Shown: positions 13,307 to 28,693 of the stretch, piece by piece
Numbering within the stretch: position 1 is the stretch's first letter
Layout of the letters: every line of letters begins with the position of its first letter
From: a virus
Reading direction: 5' to 3' (one strand)
DNA length: 30,792 nucleotides
Virus record (IMG/VR): IMGVR_UViG_3300039326_000029
Location: 1-30,792 of that record
Notes under the pieces: model-generated
Databases searched by the model: none
The model's input: only the letters and a program-made list of their open reading frames with translations
Told to the model about the DNA's origin: nothing
Position numbers and translations under genes: made by a program

Positions 13307-13750
13307 ATGTCAGACGAAAATGAAGGTTCCCGCCAGGCGCTTGACGCTGATAGGCGACAGTATAGGATTGGTAAAAACGTAACTGAAGTTGTCGAAGTAA
13401 AGCTCGACCACGTCAGAAAGCTAACTTTTCGGTCAAAAGCGTTACGAGAGATGGAGCGGACGCTAAATAAGAAGTCTATCCAGATAATAGCAGCGATAAA
13501 CGAAGCGGACTGGAGCCACGAGGATACCCTTAACCTTATTTGGGCCGGTCTGATAACCGAAACTCCCGATATAGCTCTTGATGATTTGGATTTGATATGG
13601 GACGCTACCCCCATGATGGACAGGGTAAAAGCGTTCGCAGACGTTATCCACGCGGTATCTCGTGCGGTTGGGCTTCCCGTTGATGAAGAACGGTTTAAGA
13701 AGGCTATGGATCTGTGGAATAAGCAACAGGCAGCTACAAAAGGTGTTTAA
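13307..13750 (+). CDS. Tail assembly chaperone, GTA-gp10-like
   Basis: The 147-aa protein is dominated by 'VKLDHVRKLTFRSKALREMERTLNKKSIQIIAAINEADWSHEDTLNLIWAGLITETPDIALDDLDLIWD' (about residues 28-95). This matches the gene-transfer-agent gp10-type chaperone pattern: 'lrf.inal..lE...g.s......l.....s...lr.llWaGL..e.p.lt.ddv..il'. Such chaperones coat the tape measure before tube polymerisation, and the gene correctly lies between terminator and tape measure. No slippery frameshift site was evident at its 3' end; the following ORF starts two bases after the stop. It starts after a GAGAGGT ribosome binding site. Confidence 0.65.
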   Translation: MSDENEGSRQALDADRRQYRIGKNVTEVVEVKLDHVRKLTFRSKALREMERTLNKKSIQIIAAINEADWSHEDTLNLIWAGLITETPDIALDDLDLIWDATPMMDRVKAFADVIHAVSRAVGLPVDEERFKKAMDLWNKQQAATKGV

Positions 13751-13751
13751 G

Positions 13752-14114
13752 ATGGATACTGCAACCGATGATTCAACTCTTGGATACGCTACTCGTGTTC
13801 CAGAACTCGAAAAAGAAGTTAAGGAATTAAAAGCTCGATTGGACGAAAGGGACTACTTCGACAGCCTCACTAGAAAGATTAAAGTAAGTAAAGAAACCGA
13901 AGAGTTGCTTGACGATTGTCTACGCAAGGCAGGCACATATGAGTGTTATGATTGTGAGAAAGGAGAAACCTATGATCAGGTCATAGCACGCCTCGCTCGA
14001 AAAGAGTTAGTAGGAACATACTTTGCCGAACTACACGACGTTGACAATTTGGGTATTAAAATCGGTTACCAAGCTACTGACATAATGAGGAAAACGCAAA
14101 TTTTGAAAGGTTAA
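13752..14114 (+). CDS. Hypothetical coiled-coil protein with CxxC (120 aa)
   Basis: The start chosen is the ATG just after the chaperone stop; the frame is open farther upstream only as overlap. The product has a coiled-coil segment (residues about 13-33, 'VPELEKEVKELKARLDERD') and a 'YECYDCEKGETYDQVIARLA' CxxC segment near residue 65. No family is recognised. It lies between the chaperone and a cysteine-cluster protein and is likely translated with both (two-base gaps). It could be a tail-assembly accessory protein. Function is unknown. Confidence 0.6.
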   Translation: MDTATDDSTLGYATRVPELEKEVKELKARLDERDYFDSLTRKIKVSKETEELLDDCLRKAGTYECYDCEKGETYDQVIARLARKELVGTYFAELHDVDNLGIKIGYQATDIMRKTQILKG

Positions 14115-14690: not shown

Positions 14691-16994
14691 ATGGGCGGCG
14701 GCGATGTCGTAGGGACTGCGATAGTTAATTTAAAGAGTGATGCATCCGGCTTCCTTAGCGATTTGACTGGCGCGTTAGGTAAGGGTAAAGGGCTGTTCTC
14801 GGACTTCGGTAGTGATATCTCCGGCACCATGAAAGGCGCTGGCGGCATCATGACCGCAGGCATAACCGCGCCGATAGTAGCCGTCGGAGCGTTTGCCATA
14901 AAAAGCGGAGAGATTGTAGAAGACGCTACGTCGTCGATAGCCAAAGCCACAGGACAACAGGGAGCGCAACTTGCTTCTACAATGACCCAATGGAAAAGCG
15001 TATATGCTTCGGTTCCTTCTTCTGCTGCCGATGTGACAGCGGTTATCACAAAGCTTACGACTTCTTTACACCTACAAGGCCAAGAACTTAAAGATACTGC
15101 AACAGACGTCCTTAATTATTCAATCGCTACAAAAACCAGCGCATCGTCTGACGCTGCTACGTTTGCGACAATGACCAACGCCGCTCACTTGGCTGGCAAT
15201 GCGTCATTAACTGCTGCACAACTTACCGATATGGCAACCGTAGCGTATCAAAAGACGGGCGTAACTATGGACCAGATTTCACCTGCCTTTAACAAAGCAA
15301 CGGCATCAATGACGGCGATGGGCCTATCTATACCGCAGCAAATTGCTATGTTGGATGGACTGACTCATGCAGGGCTCAAGGCTAAACAGGTCACTACGAT
15401 ATTGATGGGAATCGGCCCAGCGGCTAAGGCGGCAGGTGAGAGCTCTAGTGCGTTCTGGCAGCACATGATCCAAGACGCTAAAGACGGGGGTACGTACACC
15501 GCAGCCGAAACGAAACTGCTTGGCAAGAACGCTGATATGTTCACGGCGGCTGCGAAGTCAGGCAAACTCAGCAATGACCAGTTAGTCGCATCACTACAGA
15601 ATAGTAAAGGAGCAGCAGATAAAGCAGGCGAAGCCTCTCAAACATTTGGTGAAAAGCTTACGTTATTTACCCATCAAGGAGAGATGGCGCTTGCTCCTTT
15701 GGGTATTACGCTCATTAACATAGCCTCGAATCTCCTTACCGCATTGACACCAGTTATGGATTTTGTTGCTAAAATCATGAATGTCTTTGCAGGTATGCCT
15801 GAGCCTATCCAAATGGTCGTTATCGCTATTGCTGGAATCGCGGCAGCCATTGGGCCGGTTTTAATGCTTATAGGGATGATGGCCCCCGCGATCGGACCAA
15901 TAGTCACGATACTAGGTATGATGGGTATCGAGATAGACATGGCGGCACTCTCCGCTGGCGGCCTTACAGGAGCACTTGGCGGAGCGGCAGCGGCGGCGTG
16001 GGCAGTCAGTATCCCGATTATGGGTATGGAACTGCCGTTAATAGCTATTATCGCGGCGGTCGTAGTTATCGGCGCAATCCTTTATCTATTATATACCCGA
16101 TTCAAACCCTTCCACGATGCAGTGCAAGCAGTGTTGGGCTGGGCGAAAAACCTTGTCAGCACCCTTCAGAACCTTAATTGGGGCAGCGCATTTAGTGGGG
16201 TCGTGGCTACAGTAGAGAGCATAGGGGGTAAACTTTGGAACTCCATCGTGAGTGCAGTAGGTGGATTCGGCTCGTGGTTATGGAGTCTTATCTCAGACCT
16301 CCCATCAAAATTATGGTCTGCGTATATAGGTATTTGGACTCAGATAGGCTCTTGGTTATGGGGTGAGATATCGGGACTTGCCGAGAAAGCGTGGAATACG
16401 TATATCGGTATCTGGGCGGCGATAGGCTCTTGGTTATGGGGTTTGATCTCACCGCTTCCTGGAGAGTTATGGGGCGGACTACAGAGCGCCCTTGGTGGAT
16501 TTGGAAACTGGCTATGGAACCAACTCACTTCAATTCCAGGTAAGTTAGAAAGTGCGATTAATGCGATATGGAGCGATGTCGCCAATGCGTTCGTAAATGC
16601 GCTCAAAGGGGCAGTATCAGGAGCAGCAAGCAGTATCGTTAGTCCTATACAAAGTGCAATCTCTAGCCTGCATCTTCCTGCATTACCAGCAGCTCAACAC
16701 GGCGGCATAGTCACTAAACCGACACTATTAATCGCAGGCGAAGCAGGCCCGGAAGCGATTACACCATTAAGCAACGTCAGCGGTGGGGGCTTTTCGGTAA
16801 ACCCAGGTAGTATAAGTCCGTATAGTCCAGGTGGAAGCGCTGGGCAAGGACAAGGCAACGTTATCATTTCAGCCGGAGCGATTCAGATTAACAATCCGAT
16901 TCTAACTTCAAACAGTGCGATTGATACGCTAAGCACAAAAATCGGTTATAAAGTGAATAGCGAAATGCGGCGAGCAGGATTAAGCAAAGGATAA
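14691..16994 (+). CDS. Tape measure protein
   Basis: The 767-aa product is by layout and motifs the tape measure that sets tail length and is probably ejected with DNA. It starts 'MGGGDVVGTAIVNLKSDASGF', the usual strand opening ('v....l..d.s.f...l..a'). An N-terminal domain rich in Gly and Ala follows, with the TP901-type tape-measure segment about 60-340. Hydrophobic segments lie at about 375-420 and 445-465. A Trp-rich region of 26-residue repeats follows (about 519-648). The C-terminal motif 'HGGIVTKPTLLIAGEAGPEAITPL' is diagnostic of tape measures. At roughly 0.15 nm per residue the tail would be near 115 nm. The final section is Gly/Ser-rich. Confidence 0.93.
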   Translation: MGGGDVVGTAIVNLKSDASGFLSDLTGALGKGKGLFSDFGSDISGTMKGAGGIMTAGITAPIVAVGAFAIKSGEIVEDATSSIAKATGQQGAQLASTMTQWKSVYASVPSSAADVTAVITKLTTSLHLQGQELKDTATDVLNYSIATKTSASSDAATFATMTNAAHLAGNASLTAAQLTDMATVAYQKTGVTMDQISPAFNKATASMTAMGLSIPQQIAMLDGLTHAGLKAKQVTTILMGIGPAAKAAGESSSAFWQHMIQDAKDGGTYTAAETKLLGKNADMFTAAAKSGKLSNDQLVASLQNSKGAADKAGEASQTFGEKLTLFTHQGEMALAPLGITLINIASNLLTALTPVMDFVAKIMNVFAGMPEPIQMVVIAIAGIAAAIGPVLMLIGMMAPAIGPIVTILGMMGIEIDMAALSAGGLTGALGGAAAAAWAVSIPIMGMELPLIAIIAAVVVIGAILYLLYTRFKPFHDAVQAVLGWAKNLVSTLQNLNWGSAFSGVVATVESIGGKLWNSIVSAVGGFGSWLWSLISDLPSKLWSAYIGIWTQIGSWLWGEISGLAEKAWNTYIGIWAAIGSWLWGLISPLPGELWGGLQSALGGFGNWLWNQLTSIPGKLESAINAIWSDVANAFVNALKGAVSGAASSIVSPIQSAISSLHLPALPAAQHGGIVTKPTLLIAGEAGPEAITPLSNVSGGGFSVNPGSISPYSPGGSAGQGQGNVIISAGAIQINNPILTSNSAIDTLSTKIGYKVNSEMRRAGLSKG
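16245..16634 (+). repeat. Trp-rich 78-bp / 26-residue repeats in tape measure
   Basis: Units begin at 16245, 16323, 16401 and 16479, with a weaker fifth from 16557. The core of each is '(G/S)W-L-W-x-x-(I/L)-(S/T)' followed by 'LP-x-(K/E)-L-W'. The two central units share nearly identical DNA across the ATAGGCTCTTGGTTATGGGG block, which implies a fairly recent duplication. Changing the copy number would change tail length by about 4 nm per unit. Confidence 0.85.
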
Positions 16995-22084: not shown

Positions 22085-23143
22085 ATGACAACACCCTCAC
22101 TGCTAACGTTTACCATATCCAACCCAAACCCCGCCATTAATCAGAGCTTCGTATTTGGGGGGGCGTTAACTGACAACGAAGGCAATCCAGAGTGGGGAAG
22201 CCGGGTTATTACCGTTTATAAAATAGTAACGGGCAGTAATGATGTAATAGGCACAGTTAGTACAGACTCAAATTCAAGCACGTACCAGTTTCTATGGAGT
22301 GAGTCAAGTTATGGAAACTTCACTTATTATGCCTACTTTGCAGGTGATGATGTATATAGTGCCGTGACGAGCGAAACGATCTTAGTATCAATACCAGAGC
22401 CAGTTGTAGTACAAACAACCCCATTAATTTCAGATTATACATTCGAGCTCCATAGGTGGAACTGGACTAATAAAAGCACCGATAACCCGTTTGGTACTGC
22501 TGAATACCTGGGAACGCTCGATAAACGCACAGTTCCGTACCTCTCGCGTGAGCTTGGACTTGCTGATTCTTTAACGTTTAACCTACCCTTAGACGATCCG
22601 AAATACTTGTGGTTTTTAGACAACCCGCCTGGAAACACGATCGGACTAGAAGTATGGTATTATGGGCGCGATAAGAACCTAAAACAAGTCTTTGTTCCGG
22701 TTTCAGACGAACCGTATAGAGATTACGGAGCGACATCTACAGGCTCAGGCTCAGGTTCGTTAGGGTCTGGGAGTGGCGATTGGGCGTTAATAACGTGCGA
22801 CGGGCCGGAATCATATCTGACTCGTTATATCACTCAGAATTATAAAGTATCTCAAAGACTCGTGAGTGATATCTTGATGGATATTACAGCCGAAATAAGA
22901 GCAGACGGTTTGATTTATTACTGCAACGTTGATCCGTCGCTTAATATGTTGCTTGACATTGATTTAAGCTGGGAAAACCTACAGACCGCAGTTGGCAATA
23001 TAATAACGCAAGTCGGCGGCTATATGCAGGTGCAGATGGAGTACGGCAATCCGTTACACCGTGACATTAACCTAATGCCAATTCCAGGGCAGTTACCACA
23101 ACCAACGGATACAGGAACAACCTCGGCGGTGTTGCCACAATGA
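22085..23143 (+). CDS. Tail hub (Tal-like) N-terminal half with leading Ig domain
   Basis: The 352-aa product starts with an Ig-like domain (residues 1-105: 'NPAINQSFVFGGALTDNEG', 'TYYAYFAGDDVYS'), similar to the last domain of the upstream Dit-like protein. From about residue 118 it follows the siphovirus Tal / baseplate-hub pattern (gp37-like): 'YLSRELGLADSLTFNLPLDDPKYLWFLDNPPGNTIGLEVWY', 'LITCDGPESYLTRYITQNYKVSQRLVSDILMDI', 'WENLQTAVGNIITQVGGYMQVQM'. It stops just where a normal hub would continue into 'ygkNL.gi...'; that segment opens the next ORF. The overlap is ATGA. Either the hub is made as two chains or a frameshift joins them. Confidence 0.7.
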   Translation: MTTPSLLTFTISNPNPAINQSFVFGGALTDNEGNPEWGSRVITVYKIVTGSNDVIGTVSTDSNSSTYQFLWSESSYGNFTYYAYFAGDDVYSAVTSETILVSIPEPVVVQTTPLISDYTFELHRWNWTNKSTDNPFGTAEYLGTLDKRTVPYLSRELGLADSLTFNLPLDDPKYLWFLDNPPGNTIGLEVWYYGRDKNLKQVFVPVSDEPYRDYGATSTGSGSGSLGSGSGDWALITCDGPESYLTRYITQNYKVSQRLVSDILMDITAEIRADGLIYYCNVDPSLNMLLDIDLSWENLQTAVGNIITQVGGYMQVQMEYGNPLHRDINLMPIPGQLPQPTDTGTTSAVLPQ

Positions 23144-24909
23144 GCGTACAGCCTCCGATAATGACTATCGGGAAGAACCTGAGCGGTATTGATATGAAGC
23201 GGGACAAATCCCAACTCGTGACTAAACTTTATCCAAGAGGCTCAGGTTCCACGCCTAGCGAACTTTGTTTGAATAACCCTGCGTATTGGCCATCCGCACA
23301 AGAGCTTGAGTTATATGAAACAGACAACGGTTGGGCGTACTTCCATCTTCCTAAGATAAATGGTCAGTATGAATATCAGGTCTATGATGGATGGACGGCT
23401 GTTGGTGCCGCGTTACCGAAGAAAGGAGCCGTAACGAGCAATGGTACAACAATTACTGATAACTTTGCGGTTGGCAAAGGTCTGGCAATGCCTTACACAT
23501 TGCCGTCAACGGGCACCGACACTGCTGTTGAGGAAGTTATGGGAACTTCTTCAATGGCCATGGCTCAAATATTTTATATGAGTAACTTGGTTACAGGAAA
23601 CTCTACGCAATTTAGAATTTATGATGTAGCACTTCAGCTCCAGAGAGTGACACACACCGCTGTAGCGTGGCCTCTACAGCCACGATTTATTGTTGGGTTA
23701 TATTCGACTACTCCATCGGTAGCCGCCAACGGCGCAGTCGGGTATAGGGTGCCGTATCAAGGGCCTCTAGTTTGGTGCTATGGTAACCTATTTTCAATTT
23801 CTACTACACCCACTTGGTATCATTTTCCAATGCAGACCTCTGCATTTCCGTCTGGGTACTATGCTATTGTTATTACTCCGTATGCCGGAACAGCATCTTG
23901 GGACAAAGTTAACCCCTCCCCCCAACATGTTAACGATGGCCTAGCGTTCGGTATTGGTCCCGCGAAAACATCTAAAACTGCTAGCTGTTATGCAGCCCAA
24001 AGTAGGGCAGGCATCACACAAGTATCGTGGTTACTTAACACTGCTGGGGGTCCTTATGCATCCCAATATGCTTTTCAAATTAGAACCATTGCAACCGACT
24101 TAACATCTAAATTCCAGCAGAGCGACGTGGTACACCCCGGAAGGCAGATAAAATGCCCACTCGCAGATTATGATTCAAGCGCACCTTACATTTTCCACTT
24201 CCAACACGCGCCGTATATGCAGGCGTGGGATGCCTATGATTCATATGGAAAATTTGAAGGGACGTTTAAAGACGACGCATTAACGACGCAAAACGCTCTA
24301 ATAAACGCGGGGGCACAGTATTTAACCGCAAACAGCCAACCGATGTACACGGTTAGCTTATCCGCTGCGGATCTCTACGATTTAGACCCAGTAAAGAATT
24401 GGGCGGAAGAGCTTACAATCGGCGGGGCGGTTACGGTGATTGACGATAGGATTCTTGATAACTACGGCAACCCTTTACAACTAACCGCGATAATCACTAA
24501 GATAGAGAAACAGGATTTAACACAGCCGCATACGTTAGATACGCTGACTTTAGATAATGTCCACCTCTCTGCACATAAGATGATGGCGCAGTTGGGAAAG
24601 GCGTCGCAGCGAGGTCCTAAGTATTTACAAGGGCAAACCGTTGAAACGCCCTACCCCGGAGCAGTTGCAGCGACTTCTACTTCTCCAGGAACCATGAAGT
24701 TTTCGATCCGGGCGGGAACAACACTAACACAAGCGGTACGATTAACAGTTGATACACCGAGCGCGTTTACCCTAAAAGTCGATGGAACGGCGCTGGGGCA
24801 GACATTCTCAGGGTACTACAACGTTGATATTATGCAATACCTCACACAAAGCCACACCGGGCAACCTACACCCGGTGAGCACACCGTAGAAGTCTTGCCG
24901 ACGTCATAA
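23140..24909 (+). CDS. Tail hub (Tal-like) C-terminal half with inserted beta domain
   Basis: The 589-aa product begins with the canonical mid-hub motif 'TIGKNLSGIDMKRDKSQLVTKLYPRG' (about residues 10-36). Residues about 85-330 are an inserted Ser/Thr/aromatic-rich beta domain resembling carbohydrate-binding sandwiches. The hub resumes with 'FKDDALTTQNALINAGAQYL', 'YTVSLSAADLYDLDPVKNWAEELTIGGAVTVIDDRI' and 'ITKIEKQDLTQPHTLDTLTLDNVHLSAHKMMAQL', all typical of Tal. The last ~75 residues form another beta domain. It lies one reading frame back from the N-terminal half. The start codon overlaps the upstream TGA. An assembly or sequencing error splitting the gene is possible. Confidence 0.75.
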   Translation: MSVQPPIMTIGKNLSGIDMKRDKSQLVTKLYPRGSGSTPSELCLNNPAYWPSAQELELYETDNGWAYFHLPKINGQYEYQVYDGWTAVGAALPKKGAVTSNGTTITDNFAVGKGLAMPYTLPSTGTDTAVEEVMGTSSMAMAQIFYMSNLVTGNSTQFRIYDVALQLQRVTHTAVAWPLQPRFIVGLYSTTPSVAANGAVGYRVPYQGPLVWCYGNLFSISTTPTWYHFPMQTSAFPSGYYAIVITPYAGTASWDKVNPSPQHVNDGLAFGIGPAKTSKTASCYAAQSRAGITQVSWLLNTAGGPYASQYAFQIRTIATDLTSKFQQSDVVHPGRQIKCPLADYDSSAPYIFHFQHAPYMQAWDAYDSYGKFEGTFKDDALTTQNALINAGAQYLTANSQPMYTVSLSAADLYDLDPVKNWAEELTIGGAVTVIDDRILDNYGNPLQLTAIITKIEKQDLTQPHTLDTLTLDNVHLSAHKMMAQLGKASQRGPKYLQGQTVETPYPGAVAATSTSPGTMKFSIRAGTTLTQAVRLTVDTPSAFTLKVDGTALGQTFSGYYNVDIMQYLTQSHTGQPTPGEHTVEVLPTS

Positions 24910-24922
24910 ATTGGGGGGTAGT

Positions 24923-25741
24923 ATGGCAAGCAAAGTATTTCAGCTATGTGCGGAATCATTCAGCAGCCCATCAGCTTTAAAGAGCGCAGGATTTATTGAC
25001 CTCGTAGTCGAAGGGGGTTCCGGCTGTGTACAACCACCCGGCGGTTTTATATCTGCATGTCACTCGGCGGGTATGGGCGCACTTCTCCAAGACAGCGATT
25101 CAGGTTCAGGCGGCTGCAGCGATACTTCGTATCTTTCTGGATTGGCTAGTGCTGGCCTTGACGCAGTTGGCGGTGAGTCTGAAGGCGCTGCTGAAATAGA
25201 CGCCATAATGGAATACCTTCCTTTTATGAACTATGGGGGAAGTGGGACAGGTGGTGGGACGTATGGTAATAATGATGTATGGGCAAGTGGTGCGAAAGTT
25301 GGTAAATTCGGATGCTCAACATTCATGGAACCGTATGTTGGCAGCAGTCCGATGAGTGCCGATGAGATTGCATCAGAAGCCGCGATAAATAAAGATGCCG
25401 GGTGTTTTGAGGTTGGAATATTGGTAACTAATTATGATATCGGTCAAACGACAGACATGATGATCGGCTATGTTGACGCAGCGGCGGATCAAGGCGTCAC
25501 TATAGTAGGGTTCCAACAATGGTACGTGCTGGGCGATGGGTCTGGGTGGTCTGGGAATCCGGGGGGCAGTGTGATAAGTGGGTTAATGAGTGAGTACGGT
25601 ACGAATATGACTAATTTCTCCGACCGAAGGGGTGGAGTAACGCCAACACCTACACCCACTCCGACACCTACACCAGTAGGAACAGCACCCAACACAAACC
25701 TGTGCGTCAGAGTACGAGCGTACCAACCGGGGCAAGAATAG
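24923..25741 (+). CDS. TIM-barrel-like virion protein with C-terminal tag
   Basis: The ATG at 24923 is preferred to the upstream TTG at 24911 because a G-rich ribosome binding site lies between them. The 272-aa protein has a single (beta/alpha)-style domain of about 235 residues: 'AGFIDLVVEGG', 'AGLDAVGGESEGAAEIDAIMEYL', 'GCFEVGILVTNYDIG' and 'GVTIVGFQQWYVLGDGSGW'. These line up with the barrel domain inside the Dit-like protein (SEMGAAGAVEF, GVGFNTFQVWIDPGSW), so the two are probably paralogues. A (Thr-Pro)n linker follows (about residues 241-251), then the terminal tag TAPNTNLCVRVRAYQPGQE. A glycosidase or glycan-binding role is plausible but unproven; Glu in the SE motif is a candidate catalytic residue. 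Confidence 0.5.
   Translation: MASKVFQLCAESFSSPSALKSAGFIDLVVEGGSGCVQPPGGFISACHSAGMGALLQDSDSGSGGCSDTSYLSGLASAGLDAVGGESEGAAEIDAIMEYLPFMNYGGSGTGGGTYGNNDVWASGAKVGKFGCSTFMEPYVGSSPMSADEIASEAAINKDAGCFEVGILVTNYDIGQTTDMMIGYVDAAADQGVTIVGFQQWYVLGDGSGWSGNPGGSVISGLMSEYGTNMTNFSDRRGGVTPTPTPTPTPTPVGTAPNTNLCVRVRAYQPGQE
25682..25738 (+). repeat. C-terminal tag, copy 1
   Basis: Encodes TAPNTNLCVRVRAYQPGQE immediately before the stop, after a Thr-Pro linker. The same tag ends the next two proteins. Copies 1 and 3 are also similar at the DNA level, while copy 2 is more diverged. Confidence 0.9.
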
Positions 25742-27736
25742 ATGCCAATAGACCTTAGCAACTGGAAAGGCACGCGGGGCGCATTACCGAGCCCGTATGA
25801 TCCGAGCGACCCCGTATTTCCCAATATCACCGCTGAACAGGCTGCGGCTCTGCCATCGTCAGTAGATCTCCGGCACTATGACTCTCCAATCCGAAACCAA
25901 GATGGAGTGGGGTGCTGCGTGGCAGCAGCGTCGTGTGGCGTATTTGAATGGCTGGTACGTTATCTAGAACCGTCGGCGTGGTTTAAGACCAGCATGCTTG
26001 CTATTTATTATTGGGCTCGGGCGCTTGACGGCATGCAGAACACAGACGGCGGTACATATCCAAAATCAGCGATTGTAGCTATGACTAATACCGGGATGGC
26101 GCACGACTCGTTATGGCCGTTTGGGTCAGAAGTAAACTGCAACTCAGGCGTTGCGTATCCTAAACCTACGAATGTTAACACGGCACCCACTTCTGCTGTT
26201 ACCACTGACGCAGCTAAGAATAAAGTAACGAAAAGCGTTAGCGTGGCGACGGGAACAACGATAGCAGGCAGCGGGGATAGTGTAATTACTGTGATGGGGC
26301 TAGACGATGCAAAAAACGCGATTGCTTCTGGCTACCCTGTCATGTTTATACTTTGTGCAGATGAATATGATGGCCTTATGAACACATCTATTAAATCAGG
26401 ACAATCGTATGGGTTGATTCCAAACTTATCAGACTGGACAAAATCACCAGACCACGGGCAGATTGTAATGGGCTACGATGATTCGATCACGAACCTTGAT
26501 AGCTCAACAGGCGCGTTTATCGTAAAAAACTCGTGGTCTACTATGTGGGGCGATTGTGTATCCGGAGACACAAAAATCCCGCTACTATCTGGAAAAGATG
26601 TACCCATCAGGTCTCTATTAAACGCTGCGCCGTTCTGGGTCTACGCGTATGATACTGACCGAAAGAAGATAGTCCCAGCGCAAGCGACCGCATGCAAACG
26701 TGCACATAAAAACGTTCCGACTGTAACCGTGTATCTCGACAACGATGAACATATCACATGCACGCCGGATCATCCTTTTTTGTTGCGAGACGGGACATAT
26801 AAAAAAGCGGAAAAACTCAACGAGGGGGATTCTCTTATGCCGTTCTATCGTTCTTATGACAAAGACGGCTATACAAAAATCGCGTGTAACAGTACCTTCT
26901 CATGGGTACGCGCACACTGGACGGTAGCCCGTGAGATACGGATGTTTGAAGAACACAAAGGGCGCGCCGTTATCCACCACATCAATTTTGATAAAACAGA
27001 TAACACACCAGAAAACCTTTTGGTAATGTCTCCAGAAGCGCATTCAAGTTACCATTCCCAACTCAAAGATAATACACCAATACTAGAAGCTTGGGACCGG
27101 AATTATGACGAATGGGTAAAAAATTCCCGTAAAAACATCACTAGATATAACGAGCTCCTTAAAAACGGCGAAGCAGAGCTTACTGAGCGGCAGCGGGCAG
27201 CGCGACGGAGGAATGCTATAACCTTAAACAAGAGCGGTACACCAGAAGAAAGAAGTGAAAAAGCCAAACGTGCGGCGGCCACTAGGAAAAAGGGCGGCGC
27301 CGCTGCGTATGCTGGATGCGGGATATACGAAAGAACTGAAGCACAGTCGAAACAAGCTCGTGAAATGTGCTCAAAACTTGCAGAGTATAGATGGTACAAA
27401 AATGCTGAGTCTGAGCCACTATCATATAATGAGTGGGCCGCGACGTATAATCACAAAGTCTTGAAAGTAGAACGTCACGAGCGAATAGACACCTATGACA
27501 TATGCGTGCCTCGTTACCACAACTTTGCTACTTCTGCAGGAGTATTCATACATAATTCCGGATACGGATACCTCCCATACGCGTACGCGAATAATAGCGC
27601 AGTATATGATGGATGGATCATCACCGGAGAATCTCAGATCGTGGTGCCAACTCCTGGGCCTACGCCGGGCGGCGGCGGAGCTCCGAATGTAAACCTCAAC
27701 GTAAACGTGCGCGGGTATCAGCCGGGGGTCGAATAG
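25742..27736 (+). CDS. Papain-like (C1A) cysteine protease precursor interrupted by an intein
   Basis: The 664-aa precursor contains a 330-aa protease split by a 334-residue intein (272-605). The protease half has 'IRNQDGVGCCVAAASCGVFEW' elements: Gln53 for the oxyanion hole and Cys59 as nucleophile. His238 lies in 'PDHGQIVMGYDD', and Asn263 in 'VKNSWSTMWGD'. After splicing, this joins 'SGYGYLPYAY', restoring the NSWG..WG..GY..ipY signature of C1A enzymes. No secretion signal is visible, so it probably travels on the virion. A Pro/Gly-rich linker (about 635-645) and tag GAPNVNLNVNVRGYQPGVE end the protein. A likely target is host surface-layer protein. It starts immediately after the preceding stop, so translation is coupled. 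Confidence 0.85.
   Translation: MPIDLSNWKGTRGALPSPYDPSDPVFPNITAEQAAALPSSVDLRHYDSPIRNQDGVGCCVAAASCGVFEWLVRYLEPSAWFKTSMLAIYYWARALDGMQNTDGGTYPKSAIVAMTNTGMAHDSLWPFGSEVNCNSGVAYPKPTNVNTAPTSAVTTDAAKNKVTKSVSVATGTTIAGSGDSVITVMGLDDAKNAIASGYPVMFILCADEYDGLMNTSIKSGQSYGLIPNLSDWTKSPDHGQIVMGYDDSITNLDSSTGAFIVKNSWSTMWGDCVSGDTKIPLLSGKDVPIRSLLNAAPFWVYAYDTDRKKIVPAQATACKRAHKNVPTVTVYLDNDEHITCTPDHPFLLRDGTYKKAEKLNEGDSLMPFYRSYDKDGYTKIACNSTFSWVRAHWTVAREIRMFEEHKGRAVIHHINFDKTDNTPENLLVMSPEAHSSYHSQLKDNTPILEAWDRNYDEWVKNSRKNITRYNELLKNGEAELTERQRAARRRNAITLNKSGTPEERSEKAKRAAATRKKGGAAAYAGCGIYERTEAQSKQAREMCSKLAEYRWYKNAESEPLSYNEWAATYNHKVLKVERHERIDTYDICVPRYHNFATSAGVFIHNSGYGYLPYAYANNSAVYDGWIITGESQIVVPTPGPTPGGGGAPNVNLNVNVRGYQPGVE
26555..27556 (+). 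mobile_element. Intein with HNH homing endonuclease
   Basis: The element spans residues 272-605 of the precursor. Cys272 starts the N-terminal block ('CVSGDTKIPLLSG'). A block-B-type 'ITCTPDHPFLLRDGTYKKA' follows (T341, H344). The C-terminal blocks read 'IDTYDICVPRYHNFATSAG' and then 'VFIHN', with His604-Asn605 and Ser606 as the +1 extein residue. An HNH_3-like nuclease sits at about 409-438 ('VIHHINFDKTDNTPENLLVM', then H434 and H438), followed by a basic Lys/Arg-rich helical region that may bind DNA. All residues needed for splicing are present, so it appears active. It is inserted between the catalytic NSW motif and the GYG strand of the host protease. Confidence 0.93.
27677..27733 (+). 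repeat. C-terminal tag, copy 2
   Basis: Encodes GAPNVNLNVNVRGYQPGVE at the end of the cysteine protease, after a Pro/Gly-rich linker. The Cys present in copies 1 and 3 is Asn here, so the Cys is not essential to the tag. Confidence 0.9.
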
Positions 27737-28693
27737 ATGGTCTGTCCAAAAGCTGAACGAAAGAAGGCGATATCCCCAACGCCGCCATTGCAACCAGGAG
27801 TAGGGGCTTCTTCACAGTATTTATTCTACAAATTTGCCCAAAACTCTACGACTATCACCAACTCAGGCAGTGGTGGGGACACGTATAATGGAACGGCAAC
27901 ACGTGCTCAGTATGCCAAAGACTCAGTTGGTTATCCTATATGGGGGCCGTTAGATGCCAACACGGACGGGATACGCATACCTGGTGGCATCTCAAATCCA
28001 TACAACCATACATGGGAGATAGGGCTCAACATCCACCAGTGGTGGCCTGGGCTTGGCTGCCCAGGTGATTTGCAGACTGGCAACGATGGGAAGCTATGGA
28101 GTGCAGCACAAGACGATTTGTTTTACGGGTATATCCATGGGTTAGCTAGTGGTTGTCTTAATGGAATTAGTACGATGGGCTACAACCTCAACGTTGAAAT
28201 TGCATATAATAGCGCACCCAGCTACGATGAGGGGGGGTCTGAAGTCCAGTTTTGGCTTGGCACGGGTGATAATAAACCAGTTCACGTACCCGCCGATGGT
28301 GCCTATGATGAAGGAAGGATATACTGGACATTTAGTAACGCCTTGTTTTCACTCAACACTAATTATTATTTTCAGATTACAGTAAATCTTGAGGACCCGG
28401 GAGCCTATGTTGATACTTCTGGTACCTACTCTATTGGGAATTGTCTGAATACTGGCTCTCCGTGTTCTGACCCTAACGTAACGGGGTTTCCGTGCGGCTG
28501 TTATCTTTATGTGTGGAGGGAGTATAATTCCGCTCAGAATTTATCAGGAGGCTTGGACTGGGCTGACGATGTTGTTTTATGGAAAGGTGGTGGACCGGGA
28601 CCCGGACCACCTGGACCGACCCCAACACCAGGAACAGCCCCAAATGTCAACATGTGCGTCAACGTGCGAGAGTACCAACCGGGCCAGGAGTAA
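27737..28693 (+). CDS. Beta-rich secreted/virion protein of unknown function with C-terminal tag
   Basis: The 318-aa protein begins directly after the protease stop. It has a short basic N-terminus, then a domain with many aromatic and Gly residues: 'TWEIGLNIHQWWPGLGCPGDLQTG', 'GYNLNVEIAYNSAPSYDEGGSEVQFWLGTGD', 'LNTNYYFQITVNLEDPGAYV' and 'GFPCGCYLYVWREYNSAQNLSG'. The strand pattern suggests a carbohydrate-binding or lectin-like jelly roll, and the several Cys (two CxCs or near-CxC) might form disulfides. A Gly/Pro-rich linker (about 284-298) leads to the tag TAPNVNMCVNVREYQPGQE. I do not recognise the domain. The shared tag and adjacency suggest it works with the two preceding tagged proteins. 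Confidence 0.5.
   Translation: MVCPKAERKKAISPTPPLQPGVGASSQYLFYKFAQNSTTITNSGSGGDTYNGTATRAQYAKDSVGYPIWGPLDANTDGIRIPGGISNPYNHTWEIGLNIHQWWPGLGCPGDLQTGNDGKLWSAAQDDLFYGYIHGLASGCLNGISTMGYNLNVEIAYNSAPSYDEGGSEVQFWLGTGDNKPVHVPADGAYDEGRIYWTFSNALFSLNTNYYFQITVNLEDPGAYVDTSGTYSIGNCLNTGSPCSDPNVTGFPCGCYLYVWREYNSAQNLSGGLDWADDVVLWKGGGPGPGPPGPTPTPGTAPNVNMCVNVREYQPGQE
28634..28690 (+). repeat. C-terminal tag, copy 3
   Basis: Encodes TAPNVNMCVNVREYQPGQE directly before the TAA. It is closest to copy 1, and the two share long stretches of identical bases. Confidence 0.9.

Follow-up and report, generated by a model that had tools for sequence, protein, structure and literature searches.

A common C-terminal strand on three neighbouring proteins of an IMG/VR virus, a candidate for the displaced last strand of the tail hub

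Donor-strand complementation and exchange, in which an incomplete beta-sandwich takes an alternating hydrophobic strand from another chain, are known from chaperone-usher pili and from the TasA fibres of Bacillus subtilis (PMC9674648). The locus described here resembles these systems. It lies in a viral DNA of 30,792 bases, the IMG/VR record IMGVR_UViG_3300039326_000029 (this whole analysed stretch is called the window below), where three neighbouring genes code for proteins that end in a common 19-residue peptide, the tag, next to the gene of a tail hub. In the known systems, the donor strand usually lies at the N-terminus and joins like subunits in a fibre, whereas here it is C-terminal, is carried by three unrelated cargo proteins and would be received by a viral tail hub.

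Three other kinds of systems are comparable. Engineered split domains of the SpyTag/SpyCatcher type also use a separated last strand as a portable tag for any cargo; the present tag, in contrast, is natural, has no recognised isopeptide residues and is split off at different points in different viruses. Siphovirus tail-associated (Tal) proteins and baseplate hubs (PF06605) are related through the hub of the window, which is a member of this family. The baseplate hub of HFTV1, a trimer from which three domains project, shows similarity to xylanases/glycosaminidases and protease-like fibres (PMC12494034). Additional domains of such hubs, however, either belong to the same chain or are attached through folded interfaces, and the literature searched mentions no terminal strand common to several proteins. 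Endolysins, composed of a catalytic and a C-terminal cell-wall-binding domain, have a similar layout, in which a flexible linker joins an enzyme to a shared C-terminal targeting unit, but the tail-adjacent set studied here ends in a 19-residue strand and not in a folded binding domain. No description matching strand complementation in viral or phage tails was found in the literature searched, the coverage of which is incomplete.

The genes of the window are ordered from head, tail-tube and tape-measure genes to tail-tip genes. Among the latter are three adjacent open reading frames (ORFs; 24911–25741, 25742–27736 and 27737–28693), each ending in the 19-residue strand immediately 5' of the stop codon, after a linker of Pro, Thr and Gly (P/T/G). 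Their positions and the unrelatedness of their bodies (a triose-phosphate isomerase (TIM) barrel, an intein-bearing papain-like protease and a protein of no assigned family) agree with the first-pass annotation, made from the DNA sequence alone. The tagged proteins and the tags are as follows.

24923..25741, + strand: T1, (beta/alpha)8-barrel protein, putative glycosidase, tagged (AlphaFold2 (AF2) model and TIM-barrel Foldseek matches)
25742..27736, + strand: T2, papain-family (C1) protease with an intein, tagged (PF00112, E 1.8e-6; PF14890, E 7e-17)
27737..28693, + strand: T3, possible lectin-like binder, tagged (homologs beside tail genes in the viruses G021, G022, G029 and G030)
25682..25738, + strand: tag copy 1, TAPNTNLCVRVRAYQPGQE, directly before the stop of T1
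27677..27733, + strand: tag copy 2, GAPNVNLNVNVRGYQPGVE, directly before the stop of T2
28634..28690, + strand: tag copy 3, TAPNVNMCVNVREYQPGQE, directly before the stop of T3

On the sequences compared, the tag is real. The three copies share 15, 14 and 13 of 19 residues pairwise, and 12 columns are invariant. The window and nine related virus records together provide 652 ORF C-termini (at least 100 amino acids), among which the background match does not exceed 5/19; only two neighbours of the hub in the virus G022 (see below) reach 6/19, and these are homologous. When all C-termini of 13 virus sequences were compared pairwise, no further tag-like set emerged outside the tagged group. At the DNA level, the copies are only 63–75% identical, copies 1 and 3 being the closest, as first noted (43 of 57 positions, against 36 and 38 for the remaining pairs). 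The proportion of synonymous differences (pS, 0.31–0.93) exceeds that of non-synonymous differences (pN, 0.14–0.31) in every pair, with only 12–15 synonymous sites per pair; the tags are conserved at the protein level. The residue pattern of the tag alternates in/out like a beta-strand in all lineages (V/T5-L/M/I7-V9-V/I11, with polar residues between). The last 60 residues of T1–T3 contain no LPXTG or PGF-CTERM motif, membrane helix or basic end, which bears out the initial view that the tag is not a membrane-sorting signal.

A scan of IMG/VR for the tag by DNA pattern found it only in G001 (IMGVR_UViG_3300038428_000087), a sister virus that is 97% identical to the window across a compared stretch of 14.6 kb. 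The 57,956 bases of G001 have overlapping ends, and the genome is therefore apparently circular; it encodes an Orc1/Cdc6 initiator (Cdc6_lid, Cdc6_C), which points to an archaeal host. Copy 1 of G001 is identical to that of the window. Copies 2 and 3 have diverged (GAPNVNINVEIRTYQPGNE and TAPNVNMNVSVREWQPGNE) and preserve the pattern A-P-N-x-N-x-x-V-x-V/I-R-x-Y/W-Q-P-G-x-E. The two viruses cease to be near-identical inside the tag, some 30 bases from the end of T2 (27703–27736), and their T3 sequences are about 61% identical, which suggests a recombination point at the tag.

When T1, the hub and the capsid protein were used as queries, the same neighbourhood was recognised in two more viruses, G021 (3300025432_000047) and G022 (3300046673_000114), so that three lineages could be compared (window/G001, G021 and G022). 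Genome contigs scanned with the hub and with T1 contained no relatives. Public phage records gave no matches to the hub, T1 or T3, and one distant match to the C1 protease. The comparison of lineages centres on the hub gene, which adjoins the tagged genes on their 5' side.

23140..24909, + strand: tail hub/tail-associated protein (Prophage_tail, PF06605, Pfam E 7e-15), 589 amino acids, the proposed receptor
24616..24906, + strand: beta-rich C-terminal domain of the hub, predicted strands A–E, without the last strand (alignments, AF2, weak Foldseek matches, phrog_4311)
24796..24894, + strand: hub residues 553–585 (strands D–E), found on neighbouring proteins in G022 and G021 (sequence identity)

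The PF06605 match scores 55.7 bits (curated cut-off 31.3), and the hub also matches phrog_4311/1067/6253/3558. The window hub aligns to the hubs of G022 and G021 only through residue 552. In G022, residues 553–585 are found instead at the C-termini of the neighbouring TIM-barrel protein (64% identity, E 1e-7) and T3 homolog (58%, E 3e-7), where the D–E pieces run directly into a tag-like strand, ASVRVRTWQPKEM (...GIRAQVTASVRVRTWQPKEM). The strands of these two proteins end in SVRVRTWQPKEM and SVRVRDWQPKNM and align with the window tag both in residue pattern and in their distance from the C-terminus (after Q-P). The G021 hub also stops at the equivalent of residue 552, and the TIM-barrel protein of this virus carries D–E–F (42% identity to hub residues 553–585, E 8.5e-6); its protease and T3 homolog carry the strand only, ending in ITYTIRPREYRGGYR and ITYSIIPREYQGGFR, and the three G021 tags match one another. 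The window shows a third arrangement, a hub with A–E and three cargo proteins with F only. The neighbourhoods are thus homologous in sequence and the split point shifts between them, a longer piece of the hub domain having moved along with the tag in two of the three lineages.

Because neighbours in G022 and G021 carry the missing hub piece directly continuous with a tag-like strand, the most plausible reading of the tag is that other chains now carry the final strand of the C-terminal domain of the hub. The first-pass annotation had stated that no other protein of the window has the tag. This is literally true, but the strand appears to be the missing end of the domain of the upstream hub. 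The same annotation had suggested a docking or anchoring peptide, perhaps with a receptor on the baseplate, which fits the evidence well, except that the tag is probably not a free-standing element but the last strand of the hub domain; a concrete receptor, the C-terminal domain of the tail hub, can now be proposed. It had also counted an origin as the end of a known domain family as a reason to abandon the idea. This applies by half: the tag probably is the closing strand of a domain, but one whose other strands are on a separate protein, the tail hub.

Structure prediction for the hub C-terminal domain is consistent with a missing strand, but weakly so. The AF2 model (predicted local distance difference test (pLDDT) 66, predicted template modelling score (pTM) 0.60) has strands at 31–37, 47–61, 64–77 and 93–101 and a short helix. 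Its best PDB matches by Foldseek are sugar-binding jelly rolls of GH2 enzymes (probability at most 0.94, root mean square deviation 2.6–4.3 over 72–80 columns, weak E values of at least 0.05). In the jelly roll of GH2 type, one further strand follows the last strand seen in the hub model. The phrog_4311 match of the hub (579–631 of 651) stops at 628–631, about 20 positions short of the end of the profile, and the D–E–F piece of G022 extends it to 640, at least nine positions further; both scores are weak. The donor-strand analogy can be drawn on both sides: the acceptor ends after E and lacks a strand that its homologs have, seen on neighbouring proteins in G022 and G021 and weakly in PHROG, and the donor is a chain-end peptide with alternating hydrophobic residues. 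In the AF2 model of T1 alone, the barrel is well formed (pLDDT 81, pTM 0.81) and the linker and tag are disordered (below 50; tag pLDDT about 40), as expected of a strand awaiting its partner.

Several observations weigh against the assignment of the tag to the hub. The protease and T3 homolog of G021 carry F only, although the hub of this virus lacks D–E; they would need the D–E of the TIM-barrel protein or another acceptor. No unsplit A–F hub was found among the relatives, so the order of events and the identification of the tag as strand F depend on the contiguity of D–E–F in G022 and G021. The hub-domain model is of modest confidence, its best matches in PDB and PHROG have weak E values (0.05 and 1e-3), and a direct sequence comparison of the domain with Escherichia coli beta-glucuronidase (GusA) was not significant. 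At the sensitivity used, IMG/VR contains only three independent lineages. Other searches were likewise negative: the Dit domain was not significant as an in-cis relative, the joined domain had no matches in Pfam and PDB profile searches, the BFVD fold search gave no significant match, and none was evident in a Lactococcus prophage inspected for an unsplit relative.

The tag occurs with one hub type. Tag-bearing neighbours are present in all three lineages with this hub, and the tag was seen only beside it; G012, G028, G029 and G030 carry homologs of the cargo, with no match to this hub and no tags. Within G001 and G022, tags are confined to the copies beside the tail genes; both genomes also have second, untagged TIM-barrel and C1 genes at other places. 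Such second pairs, found in G001 (L032:16048-17199 and L030:2-1036), G015 and G022, have Ig-like, unnamed or tectonin-like C-terminal modules, matched within the pair of one virus (58–82% identity: Ig-like 58–62%, tectonin-like 63% although the genes are about 20 kb apart, G015 pair 82%), and look endolysin-like in layout. The 1508-amino-acid tail protein of the window ends in a homolog of the Ig module. Since the second pairs also have matched C-terminal modules, a common C-terminal anchor on TIM-barrel/C1 enzymes appears to be the rule, and the type of anchor appears to go with gene location in each virus.

On balance, we consider it probable, although far from certain, that the tag is strand F of the C-terminal beta-sandwich of the hub and that strand complementation docks the cargo at the tail tip. 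The hub of the window would supply an incomplete sandwich, strands A–E, exposed at the tail tip, and the TIM-barrel enzyme, the papain-like protease and T3 would each supply strand F on a flexible P/T/G linker. Insertion of this strand would dock the cargo, which would then attach to the archaeal cell surface and degrade it at entry. The tail hub is normally a trimer, and there would therefore be about three sites for three kinds of cargo. We infer the physical insertion, this stoichiometry, the presence of the tagged proteins in virions and their role in entry from the comparisons above.

The tag might instead dock or sort to another receptor (tail tube, capsid, host surface or a secretion factor), the likeness to the hub reflecting only the source from which it was copied. 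In favour of this reading are two strand-only proteins in G021, a virus whose hub is missing the strands needed to hold the tag, and the other matched modules (Ig, unnamed, tectonin-like) of the related TIM-barrel/C1 pairs, which probably bind elsewhere. We nevertheless regard it as unlikely, given that in all three lineages the tag accompanies a truncated form of one hub encoded immediately upstream, and that the cargo of G022 carries the strands missing from its hub and the tag-like strand as an uninterrupted segment. If cargo genes had inserted in the 3' end of an ancestral hub gene, the leftover last codons could also be mere sites of cargo-swap recombination, coding for a peptide without a role; the difference in split point among lineages and the breaks of exchange near the tag, as at 27703, would fit. 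This is quite improbable, because amino acids are preserved while codons diverge, and because tags of such limited DNA identity are in frame and exactly terminal in every case.

Frameshifting or stop readthrough could join the hub to its neighbours in a single chain, and the pieces would then be parts of one long fusion. The hub and TIM-barrel genes are indeed offset by +1 in window/G001 and in G022, and T1, T2 and T3 of the window are in one frame with single TAG stops between them. The arrangement varies, however: T2 of G001 ends in TAA, T3 of G001 is in another frame, and the G021 genes are in mixed frames. Moreover, every gene has its own start, and a strand repeated at each stop would be pointless in a single chain, so that we give this explanation hardly any credence. 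Programmed frameshift fusion in particular was rejected, as there is no conserved shift geometry and frames and stops differ among lineages.

Docking of the strand in the hub could be part of a wider natural modular system in archaeal viruses, in which any protein ending in the missing strand is tail cargo, the place of the split is evolving, and the enzyme classes occur twice per genome, strand-tagged beside the hub for entry and with other modules perhaps for exit. The case for such a system is evenly balanced. If true, docking by complementation would be a natural one-strand plug that loads several unrelated enzymes onto a single tail receptor, a candidate new tag/receptor pair, and a testable handle on how viruses of archaea without peptidoglycan breach the envelope.

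The bodies of the tagged proteins are of different kinds. The ORF of T1 is open from a TTG at 24911, and its probable start is the ATG at 24923; its model matches only generic TIM barrels in Foldseek. T2 has the catalytic set of the C1 proteases (Q53, C58 or C59, H238 and N263), and the Q, C, H and N columns are invariant in the protease alignment. It is interrupted by an intein.

26555..27556, + strand: intein with an HNH domain in T2 (Cys ... His-Asn followed by Ser; Pfam and PHROG matches)

The intein (residues 272–605) is in frame and starts nine residues after the catalytic Asn, just past the Asn-Ser-Trp motif. The homologous proteases of G012, G015, G020 and G021 are without it. T3 has no significant match in Pfam or PDB, and a lectin-like binder is a guess.

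Similar C-termini were also observed elsewhere. In the window and in G001, the C-terminus of the tape-measure protein (TKIGYKVNSEMRRAGLSKG; 14691–16994) resembles that of the preceding small ORF (IKIGYQATDIMRKTQILKG; 13662–14114). In two other viruses, a glutaredoxin-like protein (L094:8017-8553) and a T3 homolog (L097:5965-8199) share a different C-terminal end (GLTIALRDHKKMP and GISVVLRDHKKAP), possibly another family of terminal tags.
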